Origin: Bryum argenteum
Taxonomy: Eukaryota; Streptophyta; Bryopsida; Bryales; Bryaceae
Assembly: GCA_037043015.1 (NCBI GenBank)
Contig: CM073331.1
Location: 6,583,305 to 6,647,304 of the forward strand
Reading direction: 5' to 3'
DNA: 64,000 nt
In this document: piece after piece, positions 15,151-64,000 of the stretch
Numbering within the stretch: position 1 is the stretch's first letter
Layout of the letters: each line of letters opens with the position of its first letter
Translations under genes and position numbers: made by a program
Notes under the pieces: model-generated
Seen by the model: only the letters and a program-made list of their open reading frames with translations
The model's database searches: none
What the model was told of the DNA's origin: nothing

Positions 15151-15699
15151 GTCAAAAGCCGAGCCTCCGTGGTCGAGCCACTCCCCGAAGCCATGATTTA
15201 GAACTCAACTTATCGGGCGATCGCCCGACGCGCTTCTTGCAAGTCGAACCACGACGAAGAAGAAAAGAAATAGCCGACGAACGCCGCCTCGAACCGAGGC
15301 GATCATGGGGCGATCGCCCGATCCTCGGCCGCAAGCTTTATTTTATACGAGCATCGGGGGGTCGCCCGATGTGCTAGTTCTCCGACCTTCTCTTCCTGCA
15401 CAATTTGAATAGACGGGTCCCACGATATCTTATATTGAACATACACAATTATAAGCCTCCATTGATTCAATAGTCTGCAAGGAATCATTTAATGATTATT
15501 TCAGTTCGATTAGTTCATCGGGCGATCGCCCCATGCCAATTTAGAGTTTTTAAAGACTAGGACACTGCATGGGGCGACCGCCCCATGCCTTAGAGGCTTT
15601 CTCATAATGTTCAATATCTTAAGAACTTAGAGAAGTACTATCGGGCGATCGCCCGATGACGTGTACTATAGTACGGATTCGTACAAGCACACGTCATCA

Positions 15700-39720: not shown

Positions 39721-40335
39721 GCCAGCGGATGGGGCGTCGCCGATCTTGCTAAGCGAGATGGGGCGATCGCCCCATGCTGCTGAAAGCAGATGGGGCGACG
39801 CCCGTCCGCTGAAAGAGATGGGGCCATCGCCCGTCTGCTTTGGCAGATGGGGCGATCGCCCGTCTTGCTAAGCAGATAGGGATCGCCCCATGCTCCTAAC
39901 CCGTTGGTAGCATGAGGCTCTAACCTGATGCTGGTAAGTGGATGGGGCGATCGCCCGATGCTGGTCAGTAGATGGAGCGATCGCTCGATGATGCTTAGTT
40001 CTAACGAGGACTAAGAACTTAGTTCCAAAAATGGCGTATCTCAATATTCATTTCGTTAGATTATGCTTGTAGTTAAGTAGGAAGACTTAATAATCGTTGT
40101 GTATTATACGCACAGCCCTTCGAATCATAGAAGTGGTGATCAGATGGGGCGATCGCCCGATGTGTCCTTGTTGATGGGGGCCCACACGATGCTGATATGC
40201 CAATGGGGCGATCGCCCGATATGTCCTATTGGATGGGGCGATCCCCCCATCATAAGTGTTAGTTGCAGTCAGTTTGTTAGAGTATATCAGAATGTCCACT
40301 GTGAGAAACTGACAGCTGAAGTTGATTCCTGCAGT

Positions 40336-43233: not shown

Positions 43234-43347
43234 AGGATATACTTCTTGTCAATCTGCACGGAGGACCAAATTTTACTAACGTCGGACTGGTAAGTTATCA
43301 AGTTCTTCAGTGGCAGTAGTGTCTCTGTGATGTAAACCTGGTAGTTT

Positions 43348-43554
43348 ATCGGGGGATCGCCCCATCCGTTCAGAGGATTTCACTAACTCTATTTTGTCTC
43401 TCTACCTGTCATCCACATCGGGGGATCGCCCCATCTGTGTAGTGAATTTCACTAACCTTCTTCTATCACTCTACCTGTCGTGCGCATCGGGGGATCGCCC
43501 CATCCTTGTAGAGGATTTCACTAATCTTCTTATGTCACGCTCTCTGTCATGCGC
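43348..43554 (+). repeat. 69-bp intronic tandem triplication carrying the palindrome
   Basis: ATCGGGGGATCGCCCCATC begins at 43348, 43417 and 43486, exactly 69 bp apart. Each unit ends in a CTCTACCTGTCRTGCGCA-like stretch, and the third supplies the actual CATGCGCAG splice acceptor at 43554. The intron grew by duplicating a unit that contains a palindrome and a near-acceptor. Confidence 0.9.
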
Positions 43555-46110
43555 AGAGGAACAACGCCACGGTCTTGGAATTCGTTGAGAACGATTCTAA
43601 GCTGGACGATGCCAAAAGTCGAACCGAACGAATGTGGGCTGTCATCACCAAAGATGTCAATTTCGAGAATCCTGCGCCGTCATCTCTTCCTTCGACAAGT
43701 ACTGGTGCAGTTCTTCGTCGTTCAACGGACCCTTCCACAACTTCGATGCATAACACTAGATCAGCTTCCCGTCGCAACATCGATGTCGATCTTGTAAGCC
43801 CCAACACTCTGGCGATAGCATTGACGGGCCGACGATAGCATACGCAACGCCGCTATGGACGTTGATTACGCATCCTCGCACCCCATGCATACCCAAAGTG
43901 CGGGAACAACTACATCTGCGGCCAGGGTACTGTTTCAACTAGGCAATGACGAAGCTCGAACTCATGCTGCCAAGGATTCGAGCCTGGTATGATAAACATT
44001 TCTAAGCTTTTTGTAAAGAGATATATGGCACTCTATCAATTCATCCTTAATTAACTTTTGCCGACTCTACTTGTTCTGTGACCCATGCAGGAAGTACTGT
44101 TCCATGCTAATATGTATGTCGGGAAACTTTCTATGTCTGACGCTGATCTCACTGATGAAAATTCGTGGGCTCAGTTGCCTGGATCAGGCTATAGGGATTC
44201 TATCTCTATAGCTAGAAAGTATGCGGAGCGAGTTCATACAAGGCACCTGCCGTTGCGTACTCTTGCATATGACATGCAACAAGTGCATCCAGTCCGTGAC
44301 ATGGTAGCTAACCCCACTACATCGACCTTAATACAGGTGACTCGAGTTGAACAGCGACGGAATTCTTCACCTCAGAAGTCCGACACTGACGAACCCCAAA
44401 GAGCTGAGAATCCCATCGATCGTTCTACTCCGCTGCGATCGGAAGCTATCCCCGGCATCGGTTCTAACCAAGTTGTATCATCAAGCAGACAGGATGCTTC
44501 ACAGTCGCAAGAAGATGCGATGGCAGAGTCACCCTTTAACGAAGCTAATGCGGACGTTGAGGCGTCCATTCAAGAGAATTCATTGGATGGATCAGTTCCA
44601 GACACAGCACTAGCTTTAATTGGGCTATCGGGCGATCGCCCCATCATTGATGCTGCAAATGCGGGTGCCGGCGAAGTAGAACCTCTGGACTCATGCATGG
44701 TGGACTCCATGACTGATCTCGAGAGAATGAGTCCAGCTCGCGATCGTGCAAGTGAGCATCCTGACGGAGTTCGTTCTCAGGACATTCCTTTAGCGGGCAG
44801 TTTCTGTATAGTACCTAGGGACAAGGCCGTTTCCGCGGAAGTTGAAGATACTGCAATGGAGGAGTCATCTGCGGGAGTTGAGGCGGTGGAGCGTTCAACG
44901 GAGATTGTTTTCGACGCCTTGGCTATTCGTGAAGAACCTCGCGGGAAAGCTTTGTCGAACGCAGAGTTAGAGCCTTCAAATAAGCGGAAGGCGAATGTCA
45001 GGGACTTGTTGACAGCTGAGGGGCGGGAGGAAGGAGGGAGGACGAAGGTGAAAAATATTCCGGTATCAAAAGCCTCGCGACACAACGAAAAGTCCATTAA
45101 GTCCCGACATGACACTTTACCACTAATTTCTGAGGTATTTCAGAGCAAGTCCTTGCAATTTCTTGCACATGGTGTTTAACTTTATGCCTACTACTGAATT
45201 CCAAGTTTCAATGTTAATTTGGTATTGATAATTATTGGTTCCCAGGGGGAGCACTTAGTCGATGTAAACACCTTATCGGGCGGTCGCCCGATCTCAGGTG
45301 CTGCACCAAGTGCGGTTAGTCCTGTGGAACAGGTGGTACAGTGTAATGATCCCAAGGGTACGTAGTTAATTTCCTCATCGTTCTTGCTCATGGTTTCAGC
45401 TTCTTCCTTTACCATACTGATTAATCTGCCGATTCCAATATTGATTTCCTGCAGAGAGACTCCCGAAAGGAGTTATCGGGCCGAGCCTCCCAAAAGAAAA
45501 AACAAAGGTACCGCCACCACGATACATTGTAGTGTTTGACTTGAATGGGGTCCTCTGTTATAGAAGCCCTTTCGAACAGGGTAAGCAGAGGATTGTTTAT
45601 CCTCGACCTGGTTGTGCGGAGTTGTTGAATTTTGTAAGAAGCCGGGCTCAAATTGTGATATGGAGTTCCGCTACCTCGAAGAATGTCGCCAATATGGTGA
45701 ATGTGGTCACGAAGGGTTGCTCCTTCAACGCACAGAGCCGCCTTGACTTTCTCAAGCCGATTGTTCGTTCATTGAAAAACGTGCTCGATAATAACAAGAC
45801 GTTGTATCTCAAGGATCTAACCGTTGTGCGGTGGCGTTTGTCTTTAAATACTCCCGATCGTATTGTATTAGTGGATGATTCTCCGTTGAAGTCTTCGCTC
45901 AACGCCAATCATACCATGATCCACCCACCATCTTGGCATGGTGATCAAGCCGATATCTTCTTAGACTCGTTTTACGGCCTTGGCTACAAGGCCTTTTTGA
46001 CTCAGTCTATCTGTTCAAGATTATGTCACCAAAGAATCCGCTTCCGGTGGCCAGGAGATGCCATCGACAAGAATGTTCAAGTGAGGATTTTGGAGTCCAT
46101 ACGTAGGTAG
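43555..46110 (+). CDS. C-terminal part of the block B gene: disordered region plus FCP1-like (HAD) phosphatase domain
   Basis: Exons are 43555 to about 43840, about 43855-43986, 44091-45134, 45245-45357 and 45454-46110 (stop). From 43987 on, every splice phase agrees. The middle exons are Ser/Glu/Asp-rich and disordered. The last exon carries an FCP1/SCP-type HAD domain: YIVVFDLNGVLCYR (motif I, D-x-N-G, so the second Asp is Asn, a variant common in plant FCP1-like proteins), IVIWSSAT (motif II region), and RIVLVDDSPLKS (motif IV with DD). Lys in LKDLTVVRW may serve motif III. It could be a CTD-like Ser/Thr phosphatase or an inactive relative. Two palindromes are translated inside exons: LSGDRPII at 44627 and LSGGRPIS at 45273. 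A frame break remains near 43840, so the upstream part may be a separate gene. Confidence 0.65.
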
Positions 46111-46129: not shown

Positions 46130-48560
46130 TCTACGGCCTCTTATGTTGCTTTTTACATTTTTATGTTTTAGAATGTGTTTTTTCGTATTTTGACCAATGA
46201 ACTTAGAATACTGAACTACAGCGGCCATCGGGCGATCCCCCGATATGATCACTGCTCTCTCTCGTGGACCAGTACTTGTATAAGTTGTTGTAATTGTTAA
46301 TTAGTATGTTTCTTATCATTACACTTCGTAGGTTGACCATACCATAACATTAATTTTCATCCACTGCCTAGTGCGAAGGTTTTAGTAAATGAATGAATAC
46401 TTTTGTAGTTTTGTGATTCAATACTAGCCTCTGATTCATTAAACGTTTGATCAGTAGTTAGAATGGACATGGACATGGGGCGATCCCCGATAGGGCGATC
46501 CTCCGATAGGTATGGCTATTGGTCGTTCATCCCGATTTCTCCTTGACTTGGCTATCAACTGCGTGTGATACTTAATAAGTATGTTTCTTCTAATTACACT
46601 TCTTAGGTTGACGACCGTTCCATAACATTAATTTTTGTCCACAGCCTAGTACATACGTATTAGTAAATGAATGGATTCTTTTCTAATTTTCAGATACGTT
46701 ACTTGCCTTTGACTCATTAAACTTTTCAACAGTAGTTAGAATGGACATGGACGTCGATGGGGCGATCCCCCGATTGGTATGGCTATTGGTCGTTCAGCCT
46801 GATTCCTCCTTCGACTTCGCTATCAACTGCCTGTCATACTTAATAATTATGTTTCTTCTAATTACACTCGTGAGGTTGATGACAATACTATAACATTAAT
46901 TTTTGTCCAAAGACTACTGCAAACGTATTAGTAAATGAAAGGATCCTTTTCTAATGTTGACATTTTTACTTGCCTTTTATTCATTATGCTCTTCAACAGT
47001 AGTTAGATTGGACATGGACGTCGATAGGGCGATCCCCCGATAGGTATGGCTATTGGTCATTCAGGCTGATTCTAACTCGGACTTCGCTATCAAGTTCGTG
47101 TGACATTTTATAAGTATGTTTCTTTTAATTTCTCTTGCTAGGTTGTCGACCATACCATAACATTGATTATCATTCATTGCTTACTGAAAAGGTATTAGTA
47201 TTTGGTTCTGATGAGTGGAAGGGGATTTTCATGAATTACTTTTATGTTGACGCTTCACATATCACCAAAGACAACTATTCTTTTTTTTTTATTATCAAGT
47301 TAAGAAATAAGTTGCTATGAACTATTTCGTCGCGTGGATCGGGCGATCTCCGATATGCTATTGTAACTCTTTACCATGAGTTGGATATCACGTTAACGCT
47401 TGTATCGGCTATTGCGAACGTGATTGTGTTTTTCATCAGCGGTGTACTTTGCTTTGAGGATTACATGGGCATCAACCTGCGGAGTTTGACGCAACGAGAA
47501 TCCGTCGGCGACCGGATTGCATGGTTTTCTCCGGAATCTCATGAAGCATTTTTATGTTGGCATTTGGTCATCGATGCCTGCTGGTCGACTTCGACATGTT
47601 ATTGAATTTTTGCCGCCGCAGGAAATTTCCTCGCAGCTATTATTTGTTTATGGACGAAATAAATGCCATAATCCGCATCGTACCCCTCTCGAGAAGTTCA
47701 TGAAGCGGCTAATGAAAGGTTCCAGGACTTGGAAAGTTTGTCGTCCGGATCGTATATTGATGGTGGATGACTGCCAATGGAGGAATAGGCGGAATGGTGA
47801 TTCATGCTGCTATTTTCCAAGGTCCTGGTTGGGGGAGCTCGAGTTTCCAAATTCTCGGAACGTCATTCCAAATATTTCTACAGCGTTGCTTCCCTTTATT
47901 ATGCCTCTTCGTTCTTATGATAGTGTTAGTCAATTCCTCTTGAACTCTGAGATGGATGGAAAATTCCGTCGCCGACTCTTGTGAGAGGCTATGCCGCACT
48001 TGAGTTCTTTTGTATAGGTGTACTTGACTCTCATGGCAGTCATTCTAACAATATGTAGCTTTTGACGGCTTCACGTGGGGGATCCTTTGTATAATTTATT
48101 GCTTCGAAATTCGGGGAAGAAATAGAGATTCTTACTTCAGTACCTTTTGCTCAATACCTTAACCTAGATTCGTTACTTGCCTTTGATATCTTTAACTCTA
48201 CAACTTCTATTACAATGGACACGGACGGCGATGGGGCGATCCCCCGATTGTATGGCTATCGCGCATTCTGAGTTCTTCTTGGAATTTGCTATGAAGTTCG
48301 TGTGACATTTTATTAGTTCGTGTCTGCTAATTACACTTCTTAGGTTGTTCACCATACCATCACAAAGTAATATTCATCCACTGTTGGTCCAAAGGTTTCA
48401 GAAAATGGAAGGTTACTTTTCTAATTTTCAAAACGTTACTTGCCTTTGAATCTTTTATCTTTAGAACTTCAGTTAGAATGGACACGGGCGGCGATGGGGC
48501 GATCCCCGATTCTATGGTCGACCCGATTCATGTGGCCACTGATCTTCCCTTCGAATGTTG
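46130..48560 (+). repeat. Tandem array of about 270-bp units, each with a palindrome
   Basis: CCATAACATTA or close variants mark units at 46342, 46620, 46888 and 47155 (steps 278, 268 and 267), with a fifth at about 48357 beyond an inserted 1.2-kb FCP1-like piece. Each unit contains TTAGAATGGACATGGACG, one GCGATC palindrome, TATGGCTATTGG, and a TTCTAATTACACTTCTTAGG stretch. The first unit continues directly from the gene's 3' end, so the array grew from its downstream flank. Confidence 0.85.
47381..47984 (+). pseudogene. Decayed FCP1-like domain copy inside the array
   Basis: The order of motifs matches the intact domain at 45.5-46.1 kb: VIVFFISGVLCFEDY in place of IVVFDLNGVLCYR (the catalytic Asp is lost), then in another frame FYVGIWSSMPAGRLRHVIEF in place of IVIWSSATSKNVANMV, and RILMVDDCQWRN in place of RIVLVDDSPLK. 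The frame changes near 47510. It is a diverged duplicate that cannot have normal HAD activity. A stop follows at 47982-47984. Confidence 0.7.
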
Positions 48561-48859: not shown

Positions 48860-49619
48860 ACCATGTTTCAGTCCAGAATTGACGCCAAAGTCCATATTTA
48901 GTTAAATACTGCATATAGATACTAGTATAGAAGTTAAATTCATCAAATCTTAATTCTATTATATTAATTATAAGATAAAGTTGAAAACAAATTAAGCATT
49001 TATCGTCCTATCTTAATATAGCATAAAATAAGCGTAATTACATGCTAATACGAGTTCAAATATATACAGGATTGCAGCTGTGCGAGCAGTGAGCAGAAAC
49101 CGATGAGCAGTGAGCAGACTTTTCTGCTCATTGAGCAGATTTTTAATGAATATTTTAACATTTGGAAGTCATCAAAGTGTATCCAAATTTTGAAAAAAAA
49201 GATAAAGAAGTGGTGTGCAATTCCGTGGAATGTCCTAAACCCGTAGTAATGGAGGTCAATATCATCTTGGTAAAAGAGTGTTGTATACAGAAATTTAGTA
49301 CCTCGTGGCACTGGCTAGTAGTTTAGGTCAATTGGAAATTGTAATAAAGGGACCAAATTAGGGCTGACGTCATCAATCAGTCGAGATTTTTAGTTTAGGG
49401 CAAAGGGGTTGCGAGGCGTGCTCTCTTGTATTGGCCACGCTGCCGGAGATGTATCTCCGACATTCTGTGCTAGTGCTACTTTGTGCCATCAATACGCTGG
49501 CCGAGGGCATATGTTCTTGGAGAGTACACCAGATTGAAATATGAACACGGAGACAATCAAGTGTTTGTTTTGCCATATTAGCACCTGGTATCTAGTGCTG
49601 GATGTGGTAGAATGTAACG
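48860..49619. repeat. Dispersed repeat shared with 8.5-8.9 kb; GAGCAGT tract; no gene
   Basis: The segment 48940-49080 matches 8560-8690 in the same orientation (GCATTTATYGTCYTATCTTAATATAG, then TACGAGTTCAAATAT). The stretch 48883-48905 matches 8918-8940 in inverted orientation. At 49078-49145 the word GAGCAG recurs six times in one orientation or the other. No gene was recognised. Confidence 0.6.
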
Positions 49620-49858
49620 ATGATCAAGAATAGTGAGGGCGTGGGTTGTAGTGTAAGATTGGGAATGTGTGAACTTTATGTGGAGTTCAGCGATGAGGCG
49701 ATTTCGACAAAGGTAAGTCAAATATATTCTGCTCATTTGTGAATGTTCATTTGAGTTCCGAGTTTGTTTACTTGGAATTTTGTCCGGTGGACAGGTCCGC
49801 AATGGATGCAAGTTATGGAGTACGTATCGTGGGCTTACAACATGTCGGCTTCTTCCAT
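49620..49858 (+). CDS. Two possible exons upstream of the ADD gene
   Basis: ATG 49620 opens a 31-codon stretch (MIKNSEGVGCSVRLGMCELY..) ending at a good GTAAGT donor (49713). An acceptor at 49791-49794 starts another open stretch (VRNGCKLWSTYRGLTTC) that reaches a GTAAGC at 49859. The phase does not join directly to the ADD exon at 50587, so at least one more exon would be needed. They may be 5' exons of the ADD gene or unrelated. Confidence 0.3.
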
Positions 49859-50586
49859 GTAAGCTATCTTACGTAGATAGAAATAGCTTTAATGTCGAGA
49901 AGATGCATTGTCACCTCACTATCAATTGAAATCTGATCGCGTATTGTTTGGGGAGAGTAATCTAAAAAATTGTGGTAGAAATCTGATGTACATGCATAAG
50001 ATGGGAGGATCGGTGTAAGGAATTATTTATGGTACTCAAGAATAAATGCTATGCTAAGATAGTCGTCAGCCATATTGTTGTCAGTCGCCCTCGAAGCATG
50101 CATCGAGGTGACAGCCCTCTCTCCCATGATCATCTCCGACATGTCAATGACGCACATATGGCGTACCGTAGGCTGGTCAATAGCATGTGCCGGCTTTCAG
50201 TTTAATGGAGCAGTTGTCGCGGCTCTCATTATCTGGTCAAGGTTGAAAACTTGACTCTGAATTAGAGTCAACACGATTTGCGGGACTCATCGGTTTGCGT
50301 TCTTTATGTTGGAAATCCAGCATTACTAATTGTGCTTGAATTTGAACTGAACTTCATCACATTCTTCGTGTACTTAGTTGGTCGAAATTTGGGAGAGGTG
50401 TGTAGTCGCAAGCGCATTTGGTGCTCGACATAGAATTTGTTAGAACTGTAGCGAGCGCAGTAAGGATCTTGTGATGGATGGTCAATTGTCGTCGTAGGTC
50501 GTAGAACATTTTTTCTCGCACTTGAGATAATTGACGATGCGTTTGTAGCACTCCGGTTCACTTAGAAGCTCGGTTTGTGTTTGCAG

Positions 50587-51105
50587 GTACTTATGCTGAC
50601 AATGGCGGAGCGGACACTGACATGCACAGCTTGCGGGGAAGAAATAGAAAGTTTGAACGACCTAGATTTTCATGCGGAACTGGACGTTGTAATGTATGTG
50701 GTATGCGTGGCATTTCAGGAGCATCGGATTGAGAGGAGCAACGACGTTCAGAAGCATGTAAGTACGACTTGTGGTTCACGTAAAAAGGTGGTGAGGTTCG
50801 AGTTCGATTAATTGTAAGGTGCTCATGATTTGGAATTGGTTGTGTAGGCAAAGGATGTCGATACGTGCTATTGGTGTGGAAAGACAGACGATCTCATCGT
50901 GTGCAGTTGCTCTGAATTATGTTGGTGCGCGACGTGCATCATTCGTAATTATGGTGACGACCTAATCGAAGAAGTAATAGCGGCCGGAGACATCTGCTGG
51001 ACTTGTTTTGTATGCTTTCCCGAACATATGCATGGCCTCCTAGATGAGGCGGCATTCCAGAAGGGATATATTGCGCTTGAACAAACAGATGGTAGTACGT
51101 CGTGA
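50587..51105 (+). CDS. Small ADD-domain (ATRX/DNMT3-type) zinc-finger protein
   Basis: Two exons, 50587-50757 and 50848-51105, are joined by a 90-bp GT..AG intron in phase 0. ATG near 50602 gives MAERTLTCTACGEEIE. The order of ligands follows the ADD fold: a GATA-like finger (CTAC, then YVVC) followed by an imperfect PHD finger (CYWCGKTDDLIVCSC, then CWCATCIIRNYGDD, then DICWTCFVCFPEH). ATRX has CRWC, FCKKCILRNLG and WYCYICHPE at the equivalent places. ADD domains read histone H3 tails unmethylated at Lys4. One finger-1 Cys appears replaced by Tyr (MYVVC), and the PHD CxxC pair is shortened to CSC, so zinc binding may be altered. There is no helicase or methyltransferase domain; the protein is almost only ADD. 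It converges with a methylase-like gene 540 bp away. Confidence 0.75.
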
Positions 51106-51646
51106 AGCTTTGAAAGAAGGTGGTAAAACTCTTTAAATTGAATGTAGACAATGTGGTTGATGACTCTAAGCAATGAAAATGACTGGTAATGATTGAGTAC
51201 GGCCTTGTACGAATAAGAGGATCTGAATATTTTGTGGTTTAGGAATTGAGTACGGTTAAAACTTGAATGGAAACTTGTTGGAATGCAATGGGACAAGGCG
51301 TATTTGAACACAAGAAGCTTGTTTTGACTATGGTGATGATGTTTAAATTACATGTCTAGTGCTGATGTCTAAATTACATCCAGCGCTGCCTCGTTTGACA
51401 ATGCTAAAATGATACGATTAATGACATCGAGAGCATGCTTTTCAACTTCCTTGTGCAGTGTCTTTCTTGTAGAAATTGAGAGTTTAGACCTTCTTCGCAG
51501 CAGGGGTAGTAGTGCGATGTCACACGAAAAAGGTGAGTTTAATATAACTAGAACTGGATACATTCGGATTCATGAGTCTCAAGCAATGTAGTTATAAGAT
51601 AAGAAAAAACACATAATACTGAATAGTAAACTCAAAAAGAACATGC
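51106..51646. other. Convergent intergenic region
   Basis: This lies between the stops of the ADD gene (plus) and the methylase-like gene (minus). No gene was recognised, and it presumably contains both 3' untranslated regions. Confidence 0.5.
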
Positions 51647-54600
51647 TTAGGAGTCAGACTCTGAGGCGCTCAAGTCCAAGTAGCGCTTCACCCCCGGATG
51701 ATACCGAGGCCACCGCGGAACAATATCTGGGGAGGAGTCTGAGGAAACTATGGCGTAAGCCTCTGCTAGGCCTTCCGCGTACGAAGGGAGACTAAATGAT
51801 ACTGGAGGACTAATTTGAAGCGACGAGAGTCTATCAAAGACACTCACTAAACTGCACAAAAAAGCACACAAGTTGATTAGAATAATGGAAGAAGGATTAA
51901 TCAAATTCAAATTAAAAATAAAACAGTTGAGTGGCACTCACAAAATCCATCGCGATGCGCAGCACGGACTGGAGAGTCGTTGTCGCCATCGCCGGCGCTT
52001 GATGCTATCGGTGTGCTTGGTGGTGGCAGCGCTAGGACGGTAAGTGGTAATAGAACCTCACTGTAAATCTCGCGGTCCCCCTCGAGAGCGAGAATGTTGC
52101 GGTTTAGAGACCGCGCTGCCTGTACAGATGCTCCTGCGGTCAGATACGAGTCAAAGTTAGTTTCACAGTTCAATTTCAATGACTCATCCTAGGAAAGAAA
52201 AGTGCAATCTACATGAGAAATTACAACTGATCACTTACCCGTTGAAGCTGCGAAGTCCATTACTAAGCCCCGCTCAGGACACATTCCGTAAATCAGAGGC
52301 TTGAAGAAAAGCTCTGTACGCTGTTTTGGACCTCGCCATGGCTTGCCATCTGACTTCTTCCGAAGAATACTTTGCTCGTCAATGGCATTGAAGAGCATGT
52401 CTTGCTTGTTCAGGTCAAGGGCTGGTGTGAACGGATTCAGCTTGATGTCGAGCTGGATGGGCTGACGTCGACAAGTAGATGGCAGCGCCCGCACCATAAC
52501 GATGGCCTTGGAGATATAGGTCTGCACAAAACATAAATTCAGACGATATGATTTAGTACTGACACAGACCTGTTAAAGATAATAAAGACTCATCTCTAAA
52601 TTACAAACGAAAATGCCAATAGCTCGGCAAAAGAGCATTAGGGCCGGCATTGGCAAAGGAAGTGCCAACGCCAGCGAGAGAATGTAAGTGCGGGTGTGCC
52701 GCTACAAGTGACCCGACACGTTCGACACACGAAGAGTTTCCCAGATCGAGTTCTTGAGTGCTAGTTCGAATTTTCAATGACACCTGTCTCGGACACCAAC
52801 GTATCCTCCTCCTGCGAAGATCGTATATCCAAGTTAAGCATCTCGAAGCAACACCGGAAGCGCAATACTGAAAGCTCATGACAGAAATCGAGAGAATGAA
52901 ACGACTGGGAACCGTAGCACCTGTTACGCACCGGAAACCCTGGATTAAGCTTGTGACTGTGAGGGTGTGCCGTTACTAGAGACCTGCCACAATCCCACCA
53001 CGACTGCCAATGCGAGGGTCCCATTGCAGGTCTACCTCCAGACGGTCTATCTCCAGCCAGTTCGAGTGCTAGAGTTCGAGTGCGAGTCCCAGTGACCCAT
53101 TGCAAGTGCCAGTGACCTCGTGTGGGTGTGGCGGCACAAGTGAACCGCAACAATCGCCAGACCATGAGTTTGCAAGTAAGCGGGTCCCAGTTGGCGTGAC
53201 CCATAGCGAGTGTGTCGCCACAGGAGACCTGCAAGGAGCGTTCCTCCAGGAGAGTTCCAGTGGTGGTGTCCCAATGCGAGTGTCGCACTGCGAGTAAATG
53301 TGTCGGCAGAGCTGCCTGCAGTCGGAGGGATGGGGTGACCTGGTGGCTTGCGTGGTGGTCTACCGGCCCCAAGGCGGAGCTGCCGGCTTGCGAGGACGTC
53401 TGCCGGCGCCAAGGCGGAGCTGCCGGTCCCGGCAGGCAGAGTAATGTAACGGCTCTCCGAGCGACTGCCGGCGCCTTACAGGTGTCTGCGGAATCCAAAA
53501 AGCAAGGAGGGTGGCCGTTGCAAAGGGGGTGACAGCCGAGACCCTGCTCTCAGGGATTCTCGATGCTGCCATTGGTGCAGAGTGGGAGGCCATCGCCAAC
53601 ACCAGGAAGCCTCCGCCCCCTCGGCCAAATCCCAGGACGCCTCCGTCCTCAGGGATTCTCGATGCTGCCATTGGTGCAGAGTGGGAGGCCATCGTCAACA
53701 TCAGGACGCCTCCGCCCCCTCGGCAAAATCCCAGGACGCCTCCGTCCTCATGGATTCTCGATGCTGCCATTGGTGGATAGTGGGAGGCCATCGCCAACAC
53801 CAGGACGCGTCCATCCCCTCGGCCAAATCCAAGGACGCCTCCGCCCCCTCGGCCAACCCCAGGACGCCTCCGCCCTCTCGGCTTGATGCCACCATCAATT
53901 GGGTGAGCCGACTCCAAGGGTGAGCTGCCAGCCCCGGCACTCGATAAAATACTGGTGCCCAATTCGATAGGCCAACGGTCTGCCGTCTCCAAGGGTGAGA
54001 TGCCAGTCCCGGCACACGAAGAAATACTGGTGTTCTATTTGTGAGCCAACGGCATGGGGTTGTCATCCGCGGCGGGAAACGCTGGTTACGACAAATGAGC
54101 TCCACAAAAAAATAGCAGAGGCTCACGAAAAAGCAGCACCAGCATGTATGCGTCATTATTCGACCATGGTCCGCTCCGTATCATGTCCGAGAAGCAGTGG
54201 CAGAGTGGCGACATTCTTCGCCAGTGGACAGCTCCGTATCTTGTCCGAGAAGCAGTGGCTGAGTGGCGTCGGGAGTTGCATTCTCTGGGCCGGGATCTAA
54301 GTCAAGTAGTTTGCATTCGTGTCAAGTACTTCAATGGCGTGCTTACACACCACTGGACTCGCGGCTCTGCTGAATTCCGTCCACCACATTTGGAGCACGG
54401 CCGCCATGAAATCCGCGCTGAAGCTAGACCATCGCGACTCCACATGACACATCGTGTGCAACCATCACCACCGCAGAGCGCTTCAACACGGCCTCACAAT
54501 GAGAAACATGCTCGGGATTGACGCGACCGAAGCTGGCGATGAATCCAGGAGTTGATTACGTCGGTGTCGGCAGGGCGACTGAGGGTCTTTGCTTGGGCGA

Positions 54601-57600
54601 TATAGAGTCCTGGTGCGCTTGAAAGTGGGTCGCAGGATGAGTGCCGCCACGAGAAACCCATCGCCAGCGTCCCACGAGGAGTGTCCAATTACGTGTGACC
54701 TTGTGCAAGTGATCCAGTGCGAGTGCGAGTGCGACTGTCCTTCAGCTCTTGCCCCGGGCTACAACCACTCTAAACCGCAAACAAAAAAACTAACAAATTG
54801 AAGAACTTACCGATCGTGCAGGGTTCAATGGGCTGCATAGTGGAAGCGAGTTGAGGATGTTCCACTCGAGCGCAATCTTGAGGTTGAAGTTCGATGTGAA
54901 CGCCTCGATCTTCTTACGCACGGCATATGAATCCGGGTAAAAGATTACAATCGCTCCGTCGTCATGCAGGTACCTATACGCAAATTCGACGATTGTCTTC
55001 AGAAATGTTTCTTGATCGGAATTCCAGCGTGGAATCTGGTGCTCGGGATCGGATACTCCTGGAACACGTAGTCCATCTGGGTACTCCGCCAGCATCAAAT
55101 CGATGCCAGGCCGACCGACTTCGGGTACGCCTTCGAAATACAAGCGGCGACCTATGGAAACCTGTCATGCGATGATATCAGGTAACATCAAGACTTCGTT
55201 TTATTACAAGTAATGGAACTCAACAAGGAAGAAGTGGTTTACCTCAGAAAGGAAGCTCTTTGCATCTTCAAACTCTGCAGGAAAGGAGCCCGTCATCTTC
55301 TTGAGATCCCACCAACGCACTAACGTGTCGTTGATTATTTTGACACGAGCGCCAGTTGGAGCCCCTGTTGGGTGTATATCAAGCATCATGCCACGAATTG
55401 CAGAAGGAAGCATGGAGCTTTCGGCTGCAATCATGGTGTCGGTGGCGATTCCAGAAGACTTTCCTGAAACATGACCGAGGCGAGCTTTCTTCTGCAGCGG
55501 ACCACGATCAATGTGAGCAGGACTGCTCTCAAAGTGATCCTCAATGGTCAAATCGGCGTCGACGTGGGGCATAGCCCGTCTAACGTCTCCCAGAGCAGCG
55601 TCCTTCGGAATCGCTTGATTCTCGTCATCAACCTTCGCATCTAGAGGGGCGGCAGCAGGTGGGGACACCACGGGAGGACGGAGTTTGCGCTTACGCCGAC
55701 TCGTGGTGGCCTGACTGTCGTCTAGGTTGATGACTGCCTTGAACTTCATCAGCTCGGGCTCAAGCTTGGAAATCAGGTCCTCTTCGAACTCCGGAAACAT
55801 ACCCTTAGGCATGTCCATGTACCAACCACATGGAACGTAGTGGTGCTTCTTGTACTCCTTAAGCTGTGCAGCAGTATACATACACTTCTCATCGCTCGTA
55901 TTCGTGTAGTTGACGAAGCTCGTAGGGGACTTCGAAATAGCCTTCTGCGGGAGAAGGACGTGCTTCACATACCGGTAAAGCACTCGTGAAGTAGCCTTCT
56001 CGAAATTTGGCTGCTTCTCAGGAGGGTTGTTCTTGTGAACTCCCTTCCCACCCCCTTCCTTGTTCAGCTCCTTGTCTTTGATGGCGAATTCCCTGAAAAA
56101 TGCGTTCTCCCATAATGCGATTCGCATCCTCTCGACGTACTCGGTTACGGTGTCGATCGGCTCCTCTGCACCGGGTGGGTTGTAGTTAATCTCCTGTCGA
56201 CCCATGTCCATCTCGTCTTCAAAATCCTTTGCAACAGCAATGGACAGCTGCGTAGGCCACATCACCAAAAATGTAAGAGTAAATATGGCAACAACATGAG
56301 ACCAAACAGAATAGGAAAGTGGTTGGAATGTATACCTGAGACCACCACGTTGCCTTGTTCAGGAAATTCAAGTACGTTTGCTCACTGAACCCAACCTTGG
56401 GGAAGCGCTGATTCTCACGGAACTTGGGCGGCTTGTTCCACCGTTCCAACCAAAGGAGCTTCGTGTCAATGTCCATTGCAGAGATCGCAAAATACCACAG
56501 TTTCTCCTGAGACATCTCAATCTCCCGGAACGTCTCGTAATGCTCCTTGACGAGTTCGAGGAACCTGGGAGTATTATCGGGGTGGCAAATCGGTAACTGC
56601 TTCCTTTACTCGCTCAATAGCGAAGTTTTCTTCTCTTGCACACGTTTGTTGACTGCATCGTGGATACTTGCTGCAGTAAACTTGCCTGCTTGACAATCAC
56701 GCCTAAAATCCGAGGCCGCCTTTGCCGCTTCTTGAGCAAACTCCGTCTGCAAAAGCCATCCAAGTAAGTCGAGAATTCCGCTTATCATCGTTCTGAATCA
56801 AATTCAAAGATGCATACCTGATACAAGACATTGCAGAGTGCACTAGCGGTAAGCTTAAACCATGTGGACTTCGTAAGGTTTTTGAGGTTTGATGCTGCTT
56901 CTTCCTCCGCTGTAATTATCCCTTTGAAGTAGGACACGTCTTGCCGCCCAATCCTCTGCACCCGGTAGAGTTTGTGCACAAGGTTCAACTGAACATGACT
57001 ATTCTCCACTCGCCTGCACATGGAACAAGTTTGATTAGAATTTGAGGATTGTACTAATCAACTCTCACAACCAGCTTTCAGCTCAGAGTCCAACACACGC
57101 AAGATAAATAGCTCGAGCAAGGAAAAATACAAAATCCGGTACGTGACTTACCAGTTTATTTCGTGGAGCGCCGTCAGAGCAGTCATGTTGTCACCTTTAA
57201 GGTCAAGCAAGATGCAATCGACCCTAAAATGCCATGATGGATCATGGGATTTCTATGCATTGATGTATGGCAACCAGGCCTCCAACCGGTGGTTTCCGTC
57301 CCAAACGTGAAACATCTTCCCTGAAAACTTCTGAAGGTCAGGATCGGCTTGCAAGAAATCCTCAAATTCGGCATTTACCTTCACCCAATTAGGGCTCCAC
57401 GAGGCAATGGTTTCTGGCGTCACTTCCACCGTATTCACCTTGCCTGGTTCCTTGTTGTCGTTCTCGATCGCAACATAGAAGACTCCCTGACCTTCCACGT
57501 AGCCAACATCACGAAAGTGATCTTGGAGTCTGGCTATGTCGGACTTCATCGCTGGCCTTACAACTGGCAATCCCAACATTCGACAAAGCGGGATACACAT

Positions 57601-57848
57601 TCGCGATTTCTGAACTGGTTGGAAGCGCAATTGCTGAATTTTAGAGACACTCTTGGCAGCTTCCGAACTGACAAGATTGTTGACCTCCTTATTCACATCG
57701 GCCTCCGATAGCACATCAGCATCCGCTTGCTCTTCATCTTCTACTTCGAGAGCAAGGAATTCGTCATGTGCACATCCTTCATCTGCAACATCTGACTCCT
57801 TTGGGACGTTGCCGTCAGCATCCTCCATGGCGTCATCACCACCTCCAT
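51647..57848 (-). CDS. ParB-like / permuted N6-N4 DNA methylase-like protein (multi-exon)
   Basis: Minus-strand exons, in order: 57848-57152, 57013-56818, 56746-56336, 56247-55243, 55161-54811, 52521-52238, 52133-51942 and 51846-51647 (stop). All junctions have GT/AG and agreeing phases. Exon 1 ends in a ParB-like motif (IARLQDHFRDVGYVEGQGV, then FHVWDGNHRLEAW). The middle is helical with a basic, disordered stretch (SRRKRKLRPP). Then comes a class I methyltransferase domain of permuted order: motif IV-like IDLMLAEYPDGL, FAYRYLHDDGAIVIFY, and after the 2.3-kb intron KQRTELFFKPLI, motif I GLVMDFAASTG and QAARSLNRNILALEGDREIY. This matches N6_N4_Mtase proteins (DPPY..., then vlDpfaGsGtt and aa..lgR..i.iE.d..y). 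The DPPY motif is degenerate (EYPD), so activity is uncertain. A TAG lies in frame at 57253-57255, and a local double frame change lies near 56600-56650. Confidence 0.7.
52700..54800. repeat. Large methylase-gene intron filled with minisatellite words
   Basis: Between exons 54811 and 52521 the intron consists of GAGTGCGAGTGTCCC, GTGTGCCG and CTGCCGGCGCCAAGGCGGAG words. It belongs to the same degenerate minisatellite family that fills 58.5-63.2 kb. No exon was recognised in it. Confidence 0.65.
53553..53900. repeat. 99-bp tandem repeat within the intron
   Basis: GATTCTCGATGCTGCCATTGG recurs at 53553, 53652 and 53751, exactly 99 bp apart, followed by shortened units (AGGACGCCTCCGCCCCCTCGG) to about 53880. 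Because 99 is a multiple of three, open frames arise on both strands and show a 33-residue repeat; I do not consider them genes. Confidence 0.92.
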
Positions 57849-59882
57849 CTGCAAAATTACAACATCAGATTGTTAGAACACCGTTTAAGCATTTCCCAAA
57901 AGCCGTTTGAGCGGGACATCGGATTCAGCGTCCGCCGTGTCGTGAAGGTGGTCTCGATGGTGTGTGCTCGGATGCGCGGCTATAGCTGTCGAGGGCCAGG
58001 TCCACGAACTCCTTCCAAACTACACAGCACAATCAAAGCGTACAATATCAGCACTAATCTTGGAAGGGTAGAGCTGATAACGATGAGCTCACGTTACATG
58101 AGCTGCAAATGGAGCAAGTGCCAGCGGTACGTGCCCGTGCGCACCTCGTTGATCGTAGTGGTGGCCGGCTCCTGTCTCGTCGAGAATCTTGTGGGAAGCC
58201 TCATGACCTTCTTCCACCGACATGTCACTTTGCATATTCGTGCATCTGGCTGCAGGATCATCACACAGGACTGTTATAAAACTTCTTGCCATTTCCGCGA
58301 TAGTCAACATGCTCACCTCACATTCACATACACATGCACAAACTTGAGAAGGAAGGGCCAATACATAAGGTACTCCTGATACACACCTGGATACCATAAT
58401 CAAGGCAGAACAGCTCCCACCAAGACAGCTCCCAGATCGAGGCCTACTAAAATTCGTGCTTGATCCGCAGGAATAAACAAGGACCCTCTCATGATGAGTC
58501 CACGACAACCTGAACGCTTTCAAGACATGGCAACTAGCCTGCTTCCAGCTTGCAATTAGCCTAATTTCAGCTTGTACGACGACTCGATGAATGCCTCGCC
58601 TGTAGTGTCCCAAATCGAGTACGAGTTTCCCAGTGCCATTGTGCCGCCACAATCAACAGGCTACAAGCGTCCCTCCACGAGATACGAAGTGCGAGTCACC
58701 AATCGCGCGTGTCTACGCGTGTCCCAGGGCGTTAGTGTGTTTCCCACGACGAGTGTCCGGGTCACCCATGTTCCCTTCCTGCAAGGATCATATATCCTGG
58801 ATTTGCATTGCGAAGTTCCAGACTATCGAAAGTGAAAGCTCATCACACTGTCGAAAGAATGAAAAGCCAAACAACCTGAGCGTAAACAAAAGAAAGTCGT
58901 GTTCGACTGTCCCATTGCAGTTCGACTGCCCCACAGCAAGTGCGAGTGTCCGGAGCTGGTGTGCAGCGACTTGTAACCGGTCTTGAGCGCCCCACCACGA
59001 CTTGGCGTGTGCAAAGGTCTTTATTCATGTGATAATACGAGTGGGAGTGCGAGTGTCACGCTCAATGCGAGTGGTCCGTTGCAGGTGTGCCGCCACTAGT
59101 GGCCCATCACGAGCGTCCCACGACGTTTCATTGCCACGGTCCCAGTTCGATTGACAGTGCGATGCGAGTGTCTCGGTGTAATTGCAAGTGGCCCCGTGCG
59201 ATGTGCCGCCACGAGCCACCTGCCACGAGCGTCCCACCAAGACAAGTGAGCCAGTGCGAGAGCGTCCGTTCCCCGGCGTGTGTCCTGTTCGATGACCCAT
59301 TCTCGTCCTGCACAGATCGATAATGAAGGTTTATCAACCCGGATTAAACGGATCAATAAGCTACACTGAAAGCAAAATGCAAAATTGAGAGGTGGAAAAG
59401 CCAAGCGTCCGTATCACTTGCGTTCAGACCAGATAGCGCGAAATCGGAGATGGTTGTGATGAGAGTGACTCTGTCGCAAGTTTGTCTCTCTTTGTTGGTA
59501 TGCCGCCACCTGGATACCATGACCATGGCATGGCTGTGCCTGTGTGAAGTTCCCAGTTCGATTGCCATATTAAGAGTGGGACTGCGTATGTCGCGGCGAT
59601 TGCGAGTGACTCCGTATGGGTGCGCGATACTACTGGTTTGCCCGGAGCTGTGCCGCCACGACTGTGCCTATCTGAGGGTCCTTGTAAGAGTGCGAGTGCG
59701 AGTGTCCCGGCGAGGGCGAGTTGTTCTTGCGCGTGTGCCGCCACAAGTGGCCCTTCACGAGCGTCCTCCACTAGCGTCCTCTCCTGGATCACTACAAATT
59801 AAAGAATGTAAGCTTCCAGTAGGGTGCTTCTTGCCAACATTGAACGAAGTGCCAGAGAATGTAATTGGTGGTCAGATCGTAC

Positions 59883-60256
59883 CTTTTGGTAGAACCCCCG
59901 CTCAAAGATGAAGAAAGTTGGAGGTGTACTTGAGTTACTACTGCTGTCACTCGTAGACACCCTACACAAGGAAGTGATCCTCAGTAATCTAACGCCCGAT
60001 AGATTTTAAATGCACATGGTCGTTATTTCGGCAACTCACAGTTCTATCGTTCATCTCGCTCATAGAACAGTACTCGTGGGATAACCAAGCATCGACCCAC
60101 TTCCTGTACCATTGGATTCCTTGTATCACTTTCTGCCTGTCCATGGCCGCAATGGTGAATCGGACCACCACGGAATAGGTCCGGGTATCCTGGCGAAGAA
60201 CACGATAGTCTTCGCAATCTGCTCGAACACTCACGACATTAGAGCTCTGTCGCAAC
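59883..60256 (-). CDS. Two exon-like stretches upstream of the methylase gene
   Basis: On the minus strand 60256-60040 has a TTTTTTAG acceptor and a GTGAGT donor and encodes a non-repetitive 72-residue stretch (VSVRADCEDYRVLRQDTRTY, then MDRQKVIQGIQWYRKWVDAW). A second stretch at 59961-59883 encodes a Ser-rich run and PPTFFIFERGFYQK before a GTACG donor. Their phases do not join each other or the 57848 exon directly, so more exons or a separate gene are needed. The domain was not recognised. Confidence 0.4.
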
Positions 60257-61339
60257 CTAAAAAATCAATAGAAAGAAACTATTATCGCGGTCAAACACTC
60301 ACGAAGTTCTCAGGTTGTTTGTGATGAGAGTGGATGTCATACTGCCAGTGCAAGTGTCTCTGTGTGTGCCGCCACTAGTGGCCTGCACAGAGCGTTCCAC
60401 CATGGCCGTGCCTATTTAAGAGTCCCTGTTCAATTGTCGTTGAAGGCGGGGGACTGCCTATGTCCCAGCGCTTGCGAGTGTCTTCGCGCGGGTGTGCCGC
60501 CACTTCTTGTTTGGTAGGAGCGTAACTCCACGGCTTTGCCCATCTGAGGGTCCCAAATTGAGTGTCAAAATAAGAATGCGAGTGCGAATGCAAATGGATG
60601 CTGCGCGTGTGCCGCCACATATGGCCCCCCATGAGCTTCCCACATCCGCTTTGCCAATGCCAGGGACCCAGTTCGAGTGTCATGGTTTGATGCAAGTCCA
60701 AGCGTCCCGGTGTGGTTGCGAGTGTGTCCCGGTCATCCAATTTCTCGTCCTGCATAGATCGATAAACCAACAATGGTTCAGTATTCAACAATGCAAGCAT
60801 ATTACGAAGGTTGAGATCAATGTATCGGTAGCAATTGTTTTCAGACCAAGAAGCTCAGATTCGCAGGTCCTCACGATGCGAGTTCTCCATGTGGGTATGC
60901 CGCCACTTCTGGCTTGCCCCGAGCGTTGCACCACGGCTGTGCCTGCTTGAACCAACCATATCGAACGATACGAAGATCGAGTGACCCGGCGAGTGCCGCC
61001 ACTTCTGGCCTCTTCCGAGCGTGACTTTACGAGTGCGCCTTTGAGAGCGCGAGAGTCTCGGCGAGTGCGAATGTCCCCTCTTGCGGGTGTGCCGCCACTT
61101 GTAACCCGCCATGTCCATCACACCACGACTGCACAAAGCTGGTCTGCCGCCACTAATGGCTCGGCAGAGACACCATACATTTCTCGTGTGCCGTTGCTCG
61201 AGATTGTGTGCCGGCGGCTTTGATGTCCCTGTCGAACCCGACATGTGAGTTTCTTTGGTTCCGACGGGCGCAACAAGGCATGGAAATGACCACTTTTACC
61301 ATAGAACTGTGTGCTGGCGCCCGGTGGAGGGTTGCCGGC

Positions 61340-61560
61340 GCCCAAAAGTTTACCAGCCGGCAGCTAAGGTCCGATGCCGGCAGATAAGTGAGGTCTGCCG
61401 GCACCATAGGGGTCCTGCCGCTGCCGGCACCCGGGCAGGAGAGGCGCCGCTCGTGCGTGTGCTGGCAGCATCGATGTGCTGCCGCTCCCGGCACCCGGGC
61501 AGGAGAAACGCCGCTCTGTGCATGTGCCGGCACGGAGAGGATGGCAGCCGCTGCCGGAGT
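61340..61560. repeat. TGCCGGCACC-rich direct repeat
   Basis: CCGGCACCCGGGCAGGAGA occurs twice about 70 bp apart (near 61424 and 61493), each followed by a CGCCGCTC word, within a stretch of TGCCGGC words. It is a local expansion within the minisatellite domain. Confidence 0.75.
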
Positions 61561-63249
61561 CCGCTGAGTTGTGCCGGCATTGTGGGACTGACATTCGATG
61601 ACTGCGCTTGCGAATGTGTGCTGGCGCGAATGGAGACCCTTCCGCTTCCGGCGATGTCGTGTCGTTCAGTGCCCAGTGTGAGTGCCGCCACAAGCGACCT
61701 TTCTCGAGCGTCCTATCAAAATTGTCACAGTGCGGATGTATGAACCAGTGACCCGCGTTGAGGGTCCAAACGCCTGTGTGCCGCCGCGGATAACTAACAA
61801 CGGGCGTCCTTTTACGGCTGTTCTAGTGCGATTGCACCAATGCAAAAGTTTGCAAGTGCCTGACACTCATTGCGAGGATCCATCTTCGAGTGAAATTCCC
61901 GGGTGAAACCATGTCCCCAGACAAATTTCCCAGCGCGAGTGCGGGTGTGCCGCCACTTCTGTGTTTTAAACAAGGATGTGTTTAAAGCTTGACTGCAATA
62001 TCAAACCTCATGGCATGTCAGTCACATGAGATCTCTGAGGCTTTCTGGTGACAACTCTAGCATCCCTCCTCTTCGCAAGCTTTAATCGAGCTCATCCTGC
62101 AATCAAACGAGACGGTCACTCCCAAACCTTCTCTGCTCGATATCCATCTCTAACCACGATTATTTTAAGGTGATTTGCACAGATCATGATGTAATCATCT
62201 CTTGCATGCACGTACCTCGGAGGGATAACCGGGACATGAAGCCCAGGAGTGCTCGTGTGCTGCCACGGGATCACAGCCTCAAGCGAACCAACAAAAGTGT
62301 CCAAGTATGATTGAGTGCGGGTGTCCTTGCAAGTGTCCATGTCTGAACGTCCATCTGAGGGTGTGCCGCCAAGAACGATCGCCATGACCGTCTCACCTCG
62401 AGTGTCCTCGTGCAGGTGTCCCACATCAATATACGGTCAACCGTATCTTGGAGACCTCGGCGCTGGTGCCACAGATCGTCGCTGGCTAGAAGGCGACCTC
62501 CCTCACACTGTTAACGCGAAGCTCACAGCTCCACCTCGAGAGTCATATTGCTGGTGTGCCGCCCCGAATGACGCACCACGAGTTTCCCACAACCAATAAG
62601 CCGGCACGAGCGTCGCACGTTAGAGCTAGTGTGCCGCCCCGAATGACGTTCAAACGAGTTTCCCACCTTCATTGTGCCGGCATGAGCGTCGCACTACGAG
62701 TGTCGCAGTGCGGGGGTCGTACTGCGGGTGAATCAAAGAGTGCGCGTCTGAGGGTCCCAGTGCCAGTGCGAGGGTCCCAGTGTGAACGGGCCACCAGTAG
62801 ATACCCCTTCAGTTCGTACCAACACAAGTTTCTTATTGCGAGTGTCCGAGAGCAATTGTGCTGCCACGTGTGTCCACAGCTGACCATATTCAAGACAGAT
62901 TGGAATTTCTCAAAGGGGTTGATGGAATGTCTTATACGTTCATAAGGAAATGATACTGCTAGCAGTTCTGGGTGTCCATGTACACAGCAATCACTGTATC
63001 CAAGAACCCGTGCCACATAAGCTTGCAAGCATACAGAATGTTGATCCTTTTTTGAAAGGGACGGGGAACAAACGCGCTTTCGGATCGTGCCTCAATGCGG
63101 GCGAGCCCGGTACATGCACAGCGTCAGTTGCCCTGAAGTCCCCGTCATAGTCGATGGTTCAAGCCGCCATGAAGCCTCTGCCGCCACAATGCAGCCACGA
63201 ACCATGTGCCTCCCCGGAGCTTGTGTCGCCCCAAAGCCTGTGTTACCAC

Positions 63250-63814
63250 AACCACTTGGGGAGTCCCTGCTGAACACTGAAAACGGCTAAGCCGTGCAAC
63301 ATTTAAGGATGAGCTCTGGTTTGTTATACGAGACTGCATAACGGAGACTGCATGCAAGCAAGGTTGTCAATCTCAATCAGACATGTGTGATGGAGAGAGG
63401 CTCCGGCGATGTTTCCAGTAATACCTGCATACATGGCCTCTGCATTGGCGTCTGTATTGGGAATTCTCAGTCAGCCTTTTAGGCCTCGCAGTCGAGGAGA
63501 GACTCGACCCAGGCGATTCCGAGTGGTGAACTGGCGCTGACAGTCTTGTCGAGGTCGTCCATCTGCGAGTACCGATACGAGAGCTGCCGCGAGATTCATC
63601 TCGTAAGGCGTGGCTGACCTCACACTGCTCATTCGAAAGCCAAGGTCGGAAGGAGTCCAAGTGCCCAAGCCCCCGAAGTTTCGACCCCGTCGCCCGGATT
63701 GCTCAGAGTAATGAAGTGACTAAGTCTCACAATGTCTCCAGTGGCGGCAACATACCCAGCGTTCTACATTTTCAACAACAGAATAAAACACATGGTGGAA
63801 TTCAATGCTCTTAC
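63250..63814. other. No firm gene; open frames of mixed quality
   Basis: At 63373-63668 two overlapping minus-strand frames stay open (one Ser/Arg-rich). Neither has clear splice signals. Nothing else was recognised. Confidence 0.35.
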
Positions 63815-63992
63815 CAGGAGTAGTATCTGGCGTGTCTTGAAGACAAATGACTCCATCTGGGACAAGTGTAGCCGCTCCAGGTGAGCCAATTTCTGCGGCT
63901 TCCTCTCCCGACAGAGCAGGCGATCCAGGAGATGGATTCTTCGACGTGGCATGGTCTTGATCACGCGGCGACGCCTGCGTCATCGCTTGACC
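63815..63992 (-). CDS. Possible 5' exon of the methylase-like gene
   Basis: On the minus strand a TATGCAG acceptor precedes 63992, and ATG 63983 starts MTQASPRDQDH. The frame runs through an acidic, Pro/Ser-rich stretch to a GTAAGA donor (63814) in phase 1. The exon at 57848 begins in the matching phase (G plus AT gives Asp), so the two could be spliced across a 6-kb repeat-filled intron. Support is limited to splice signals and phase. Confidence 0.35.
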
Positions 63993-64000
63993 TGCATAGA

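Follow-up and report, generated by a model that had tools for sequence, protein, structure and literature searches.

A protein with ParB-fold and methyltransferase-like domains encoded in a high-copy dispersed repeat of Bryum argenteum

Fusions of a ParB domain with an N6_N4_Mtase domain are enriched in phages, according to the accessible text of a 2025 survey (PMC12704722), which also names sulfiredoxin (Srx) as the commonest eukaryotic form of the ParB fold and whose search used TIGR00180, PF02195 and K03496. A permuted PF01555 domain is found in a eukaryotic nucleus in N4CMT of bdelloid rotifers, a host gene with conserved introns, the motif SPPY and a chromodomain; the accessible part of its description (PMC8885841) mentions no ParB part and states that N4CMT has no eukaryotic homologs. 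We examined 64,000 nucleotides of Bryum argenteum DNA (the window; C11:6583305-6647304 in a genome of 258,844,377 bases on 25 contigs), in which a eukaryotic, intron-rich gene with a ParB-like plus permuted N6/N4 methylase architecture had been predicted. The architecture was supported by a fold model of the relative P0003 and a PF01555 match (E 1.3e-5). It is not a single domesticated gene, however, but a member of a dispersed repeat family that has a sharp 3' end and is under strong purifying selection. On balance, the gene probably belongs to a large eukaryotic mobile element that is present in many copies and not assigned to a class, and its product would be the best conserved protein of that element found so far.

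As in the phage and bacterial PF02195-PF01555 fusions, as far as the accessible text describes them, an N-terminal ParB/Srx fold is combined with a C-terminal permuted PF01555-type domain. The Bryum gene differs from those fusions in being eukaryotic with introns, in its length (about 1100 codons, including a long linker), in having [ED]YPD for DPPY, and in belonging to a high-copy dispersed unit; PF02195, one of the survey's queries (PMC12704722), does not match the Bryum proteins. Eukaryotic sulfiredoxin is a small single-domain enzyme, whereas the Srx-fold domain in Bryum is fused to a methyltransferase-like domain. The fusion itself is already known from phages (PMC12704722). The Bryum case departs from it in being eukaryotic, in its motif and linker, and in the dispersed unit, which is probably a mobile element. 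No earlier description of a eukaryotic ParB-methyltransferase fusion was apparent in listings of the literature, which does not imply absence from print.

The final gene model comprises eight exons on the minus strand (57828-51647; Table 1), with a coding sequence of 3315 nt, a GCCATGG context around the start ATG, agreeing phases and GT-AG borders in all seven introns. The sequence bears out the positions and strand of the original prediction, its DGNHR and EYPDG/ASTG segments, their order and the eukaryotic introns. Its junction after GNHRLEAW does not hold: the 51-nt first intron placed there was rejected because both P0003 and a copy on C2 code straight through. The reading frame, previously taken as intact, contains two in-frame stops, at codon 192 (TAG) and codon 338 (TAA). 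The first site is a sense codon in P0003 and both are sense codons in the C2 copy, which reads straight through the second; a 45-nt intron or a compensating double frameshift in exon 3 was rejected on that ground. Given the two stops, the window copy probably yields no full-length protein and is probably dead. Both pieces of exon 1 were matched by a family profile of relatives (E 5e-79 and 2.3e-10, the first piece being itself a row of that profile).

Matches to the ParB exon (query P0003) numbered at least 152 in the genome, the best 150 of 1079 candidates having been scored, and those to the methyltransferase exons at least 188 (best 150 of 1468 candidates scored). ParB copies were dispersed over contigs C1 to C11. 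At 28 of the 30 best ParB places, a methyltransferase exon followed in the same orientation, no more than about 2.7 kb downstream (exon 6 only in two cases); of the other two places, one on C4 had its partner about 16 kb away and C1:43709150 had none among the matches listed. No stop interrupted 18 of these 30 ParB matches. Subfamilies at about 50% and about 40% identity to P0003 were present in the same genome; nine examples of the former were also paired with a methyltransferase exon, and the latter had no such partner among the matches listed. Open frames of 222 residues, mostly stop-free, were observed in a ParB subfamily at about 41% (C6:18921609, C4:2564920, C7:4631241 and others). Two loci, C4:20498341-20498493 (L015) and C7:9878472-9878624 (L016), scored above the PF01555 cut-off and were not among the family matches listed.

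The repeat unit was compared between copies. From 49067 to the window end, the window unit was 95-97% identical to a C6 copy, except at 53649-54150 (89% or unaligned). Copies on C2 and C9 were about 86-90% identical over the exons and the 3' part (C2 96% over the last 236 nt), with homology ending at 49067 in C2 and one base short of it in C9. The same terminal sequence, followed by unlike DNA, was seen by eye in all 12 copies compared (the last base differs in C9a, and C10 is offset by two). This end lies 2.6 kb past the stop codon, and its 134 nt had at least 40 genome matches (best 40 of 130 candidates scored). About 1.2-1.5 kb past the other end of the window, a basic open frame of 87 residues travels with the family (84 matches). 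Pfam returned nothing significant for this frame (best E 0.045), which may be the first exon of the gene. The sequence AGTGAC was considered as the 5' end and rejected, as flanks before it were alike between copies and homology went on upstream; inverted-repeat and target-duplication scans made there are therefore void.

The unit may instead belong to one of the known classes of transposon (Helitron or Crypton, for example), with the protein accessory or captured and the mobility enzyme in the 5' part. Homology that goes on upstream of the window, a palindromic 3' end and the greater distance that separates the 3' end and an upstream marker on C5 (about 26 kb) and C1 (about 23 kb) than in the window unit (15 kb) are consistent with this. 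We nevertheless find it doubtful: strongly diverged subfamilies retain both the protein pair and the open frame upstream, unlike a recent capture, and no such enzyme was noticed in the parts read, by eye and in Pfam searches limited to a few open frames.

Selection was assessed by the ratio of nonsynonymous to synonymous divergence (dN/dS; Nei-Gojobori) between copies, using pairs with 0.05<dS<1.5. For the ParB exon (190 codons of exon 1), 30 loci were fetched, 26 entered, 24 passed a motif filter and 21 were kept. For the methyltransferase exon (116 codons of exon 5), 14 of 30 loci with DYPD or DYPV, not EYPDG, at the common column were omitted, leaving 16. Median dN/dS was 0.066 for the former (76 of 210 pairs used; highest 0.31) and 0.094 for the latter (102 of 120 pairs; highest 0.39), from ungapped alignments with stop codons skipped and pairs that are not independent. 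Between the window copy and nine near copies, dN was 0.009-0.028 and dS 0.20-0.64, so the stops in the window copy look recent or represent assembly errors. Synonymous sites differ between copies and the protein differs little, which is strong purifying selection.

Such low ratios are also compatible with an unusually large, duplicated host gene family, used for example in chromatin or defence, which would also accommodate the presence in one genome of subfamilies about 50% and 40% identical to the query and the fact that neither a transposase nor a target-site duplication was seen. The 3' end common to the 12 copies, 2.6 kb past the stop codon and with unlike flanks, and the spread of copies over C1 to C11 argue against a host family, and we consider it unlikely.

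The predicted structure of P0003 (pLDDT 86.1) had ParB, Noc and Srx as its top fold matches, and by this model the ParB part has a ParB/sulfiredoxin (ParB-CTPase) fold. The GxxR P motif (Box II), as defined in the accessible text of the ParB-fold survey (PMC12704722), was present, with G in 41/41 and R in 40/41 family rows with a letter at that place. From motif and fold together, the ParB part is predicted to bind a nucleoside triphosphate (NTP). Pfam, run on the whole protein, named no helix-turn-helix and no C-terminal dimer domain of partition ParB. The DGxHR motif is presumably like that carried by DndB/DGQHR proteins (PF14072); DndB is not known to have a methyltransferase domain. Three of 42 family rows matched PF14072, weakly and not with confidence (lowest E 0.0059).

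The second domain matched PF01555 at E 1.3e-5 over spliced exons 5-7 and at 5.5e-4 within the whole protein. Its order is permuted, the catalytic-type segment preceding the S-adenosylmethionine (SAM) motif. Against a methylase profile built from seven phage methylases and a consensus of our own making, the window sequence scored 29.6 over 223 columns (at most 17.2 in 15 shuffles), and a profile of the window with two metagenome relatives scored 39.7 over 57 columns (at most 19.3 in 20 column-shuffles). The catalytic motif of N6_N4 amino-methyltransferases, [DNS]PP[YFW], was absent from all 30 copies; its place was taken by EYPD in 16, DYPD in 13 and DYPV in one, so that the degenerate DPPY noted in the original prediction is [ED]YPD in 29/30. 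This form is not among the catalytic forms listed in the accessible part of PMC8885841 (SPPY, DPPY, NPPY, DPPY/F and DPPW).

The SAM motif is altered to DFAASTG, and with this change the domain may still bind SAM. Whether it also catalyzes is close to an even question, and we put the chance of a pseudo-methyltransferase, which only binds SAM or DNA and would be compatible with a mobile element, a little below half. Replacement of DPPY and the AASTG form of the SAM motif favor it; the near-uniform [ED]YPD with its acidic first residue and third-place proline retained, and the low dN/dS of the exon, speak against it.

In metagenomes, the ParB part had 41 relatives, with E-values from 4.3e-95 to 1.4e-17, and the methyltransferase part had two, at 5.2e-42 and 2.0e-28; these exclude chance as the origin of the protein likeness. 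Because the genome itself holds subfamilies about 50% and 40% identical to P0003, the 41 relatives may come from the same or a close species. The end of exon 1 was reached by 34 of them, 18 of which stop no more than one residue away from the donor in the window; beyond exon 1, 14 of the 34 are unlike the family and two (P0027, P0035) stay in it. P0001 and P0002 have EYPDGLRVP in common with the window gene, P0001 also has ASTG, and both contain what seem to be introns read through, at the window's intron places. A search with the full-length protein was unproductive, and sequence searches of the PDB returned nothing significant (best E 0.3).

Searches of phages with P0001, P0003 or the methyltransferase region found no significant relative, and neither did searches of plasmids with P0001 or P0003. 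The phage search with the methyltransferase region returned 26 records; among the eight listed (E 0.3 to 4), seven were annotated as methylase or methyltransferase and one carried no annotation. Pattern matches to EYPDGLRVP in three prokaryotic loci and one viral contig were judged to be chance (the lowest tblastn E, 0.003, came from a 12-residue alignment at the motif), as was a 13-bit match at window 2072-2200. Bacterial contamination of the assembly could be suspected from a domain fusion typical of phages and prophages in the accessible survey text (PMC12704722). As the original prediction had held, it is hardly conceivable here, with seven GT-AG introns at places apparently common to relatives, numerous copies that lie on contigs 7 to 44 Mb long and the lack of significant relatives in these phage and plasmid searches. 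A remnant of an integrated large DNA virus is also very improbable. The ParB model weakly matched giant-virus proteins by fold (E 0.0066 and above), but four scans of viral contigs found no relative, the single pattern match being chance, no hallmark virus gene came to notice in the window, where Pfam covered selected open frames only, and intron places are common to relatives.

Besides the dN/dS values, several results weigh against a mobile element that encodes a ParB-methyltransferase protein. Stops occurred in 12 of the 30 best ParB exons. Homology persisted upstream of the supposed 5' end, neither the 5' end, which lies beyond the window and was not reached, nor a target-site duplication was found, and no transposase was noticed in the parts read of the window unit and the C2 copy (by eye; Pfam on few open frames only). 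No ParB family was recognized by sequence in Pfam, NCBIfam or PHROGs, PF02195 being absent from Pfam matches up to E 10 for the gene product and family rows. ParB profile comparison was no better than shuffles in a first run and reached 18.0 against at most 16.2, out of register, in a second; Foldseek of the ParB model gave no E-value below 0.018 in the PDB. The PF01555 score, 25.8 bits, was just below the cut-off of 26.7. Structure prediction succeeded for the ParB part and failed for the C-terminal domain, whose model (pLDDT 37.6, built from 4 rows) was too poor for use; its matches were mostly SAM methyltransferases, best E 0.07. Finally, NTP binding was absent in 17 of the 28 ParB-fold proteins purified, according to the accessible survey text (PMC12704722).

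Most likely, the ParB part would load onto DNA with bound NTP as a DNA clamp, and the second domain, which resembles permuted beta-class amino-methyltransferases, would bind SAM to modify nucleic acid or sense its state. The element's own DNA would thereby be marked, protected or copied, and selection across copies suggests that the element benefits. More tentatively, the mobile element may be of a new class, in which upkeep or movement would depend on its own NTP-driven clamp marking element DNA with a non-canonical [ED]YPD enzyme. A plasmid- or phage-type domain pair under selection in dispersed eukaryotic repeats would tie DNA marking to selfish spread. It would also provide a testable eukaryotic candidate for nucleic-acid modification outside the families matched, and the repeat unit could turn out to represent a type of transposable element not yet described.

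Table 1. Positions of the gene and repeat-unit features within the window
Feature	Position	Strand	Remarks
Exon 1	57152..57828	-	Contains start codon; N-terminus acidic; VWDGNHR in ParB/Srx-fold domain; TAG in frame at 57255-57253
Exon 2	56818..57013	-	End of ParB region and helical part; near match in C2 copy; P0027 runs into exon 2
Exon 3	56336..56746	-	Linker; in-frame TAA 56608-56606, sense codon in C2 copy
Exon 4	55243..56247	-	Linker; basic SRRKRK stretch, possibly a nuclear signal; counterpart in C2 copy
Exon 5	54811..55161	-	First half of methyltransferase-like domain; AEYPDG where DPPY expected
Intron 5 (2289 nt)	52522..54810	-	Decayed G+C-rich repeats; C2 copy without counterpart of intron middle
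Exon 6	52239..52521	-	GKPWRGPK and SAM-motif-like VMDFAASTG
Exon 7	51942..52133	-	Acidic ALEGD segment, after SAM-like motif
Exon 8	51647..51846	-	C-terminus and stop
Repeat unit, part within window	49067..64000	-	Common with C6 copy; extends beyond window
Sharp 3' end of unit	49067..49200	-	Terminates GCTGCAATCCTG at 49067; palindromic CTGCTC repeats
Cys-rich coding pieces in unit, opposite strand	50587..51102	+	Weak ADD_ATRX and zf-4CXXC_R1 matches, both under cut-off; C2 counterpart

Other features were observed elsewhere in the window. Gene B, at 40300-43835 (+), is coding with apparent frame breaks and contains HYYIIGGGKDT, which by eye resembles a ParB box, together with DVHG/LHGGPNFT pieces. 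It had no Pfam or NCBIfam match, only a chance-level PHROG match, and no match to the family profiles or to a phage ParB or methylase profile. The palindrome GCGATCGC, which we take to be the cyanobacterial HIP1 word, occurred in 13 copies against 0.6 expected from base composition, at 15217-15652 and 39763-44639, and GGGCGATCGCCC occurred 12 times. Two coding pieces of NIF/FCP-type phosphatase were found on the plus strand, at 45445-46107 (E 7.8e-16) and 47490-47981 (E 1.7e-4). A protein with DUF659, a domain known from hAT-type transposons, was encoded at 31862-32710 (-), and a Copia-like gag-pol reading was recognized by eye at 3971-6355 (+).
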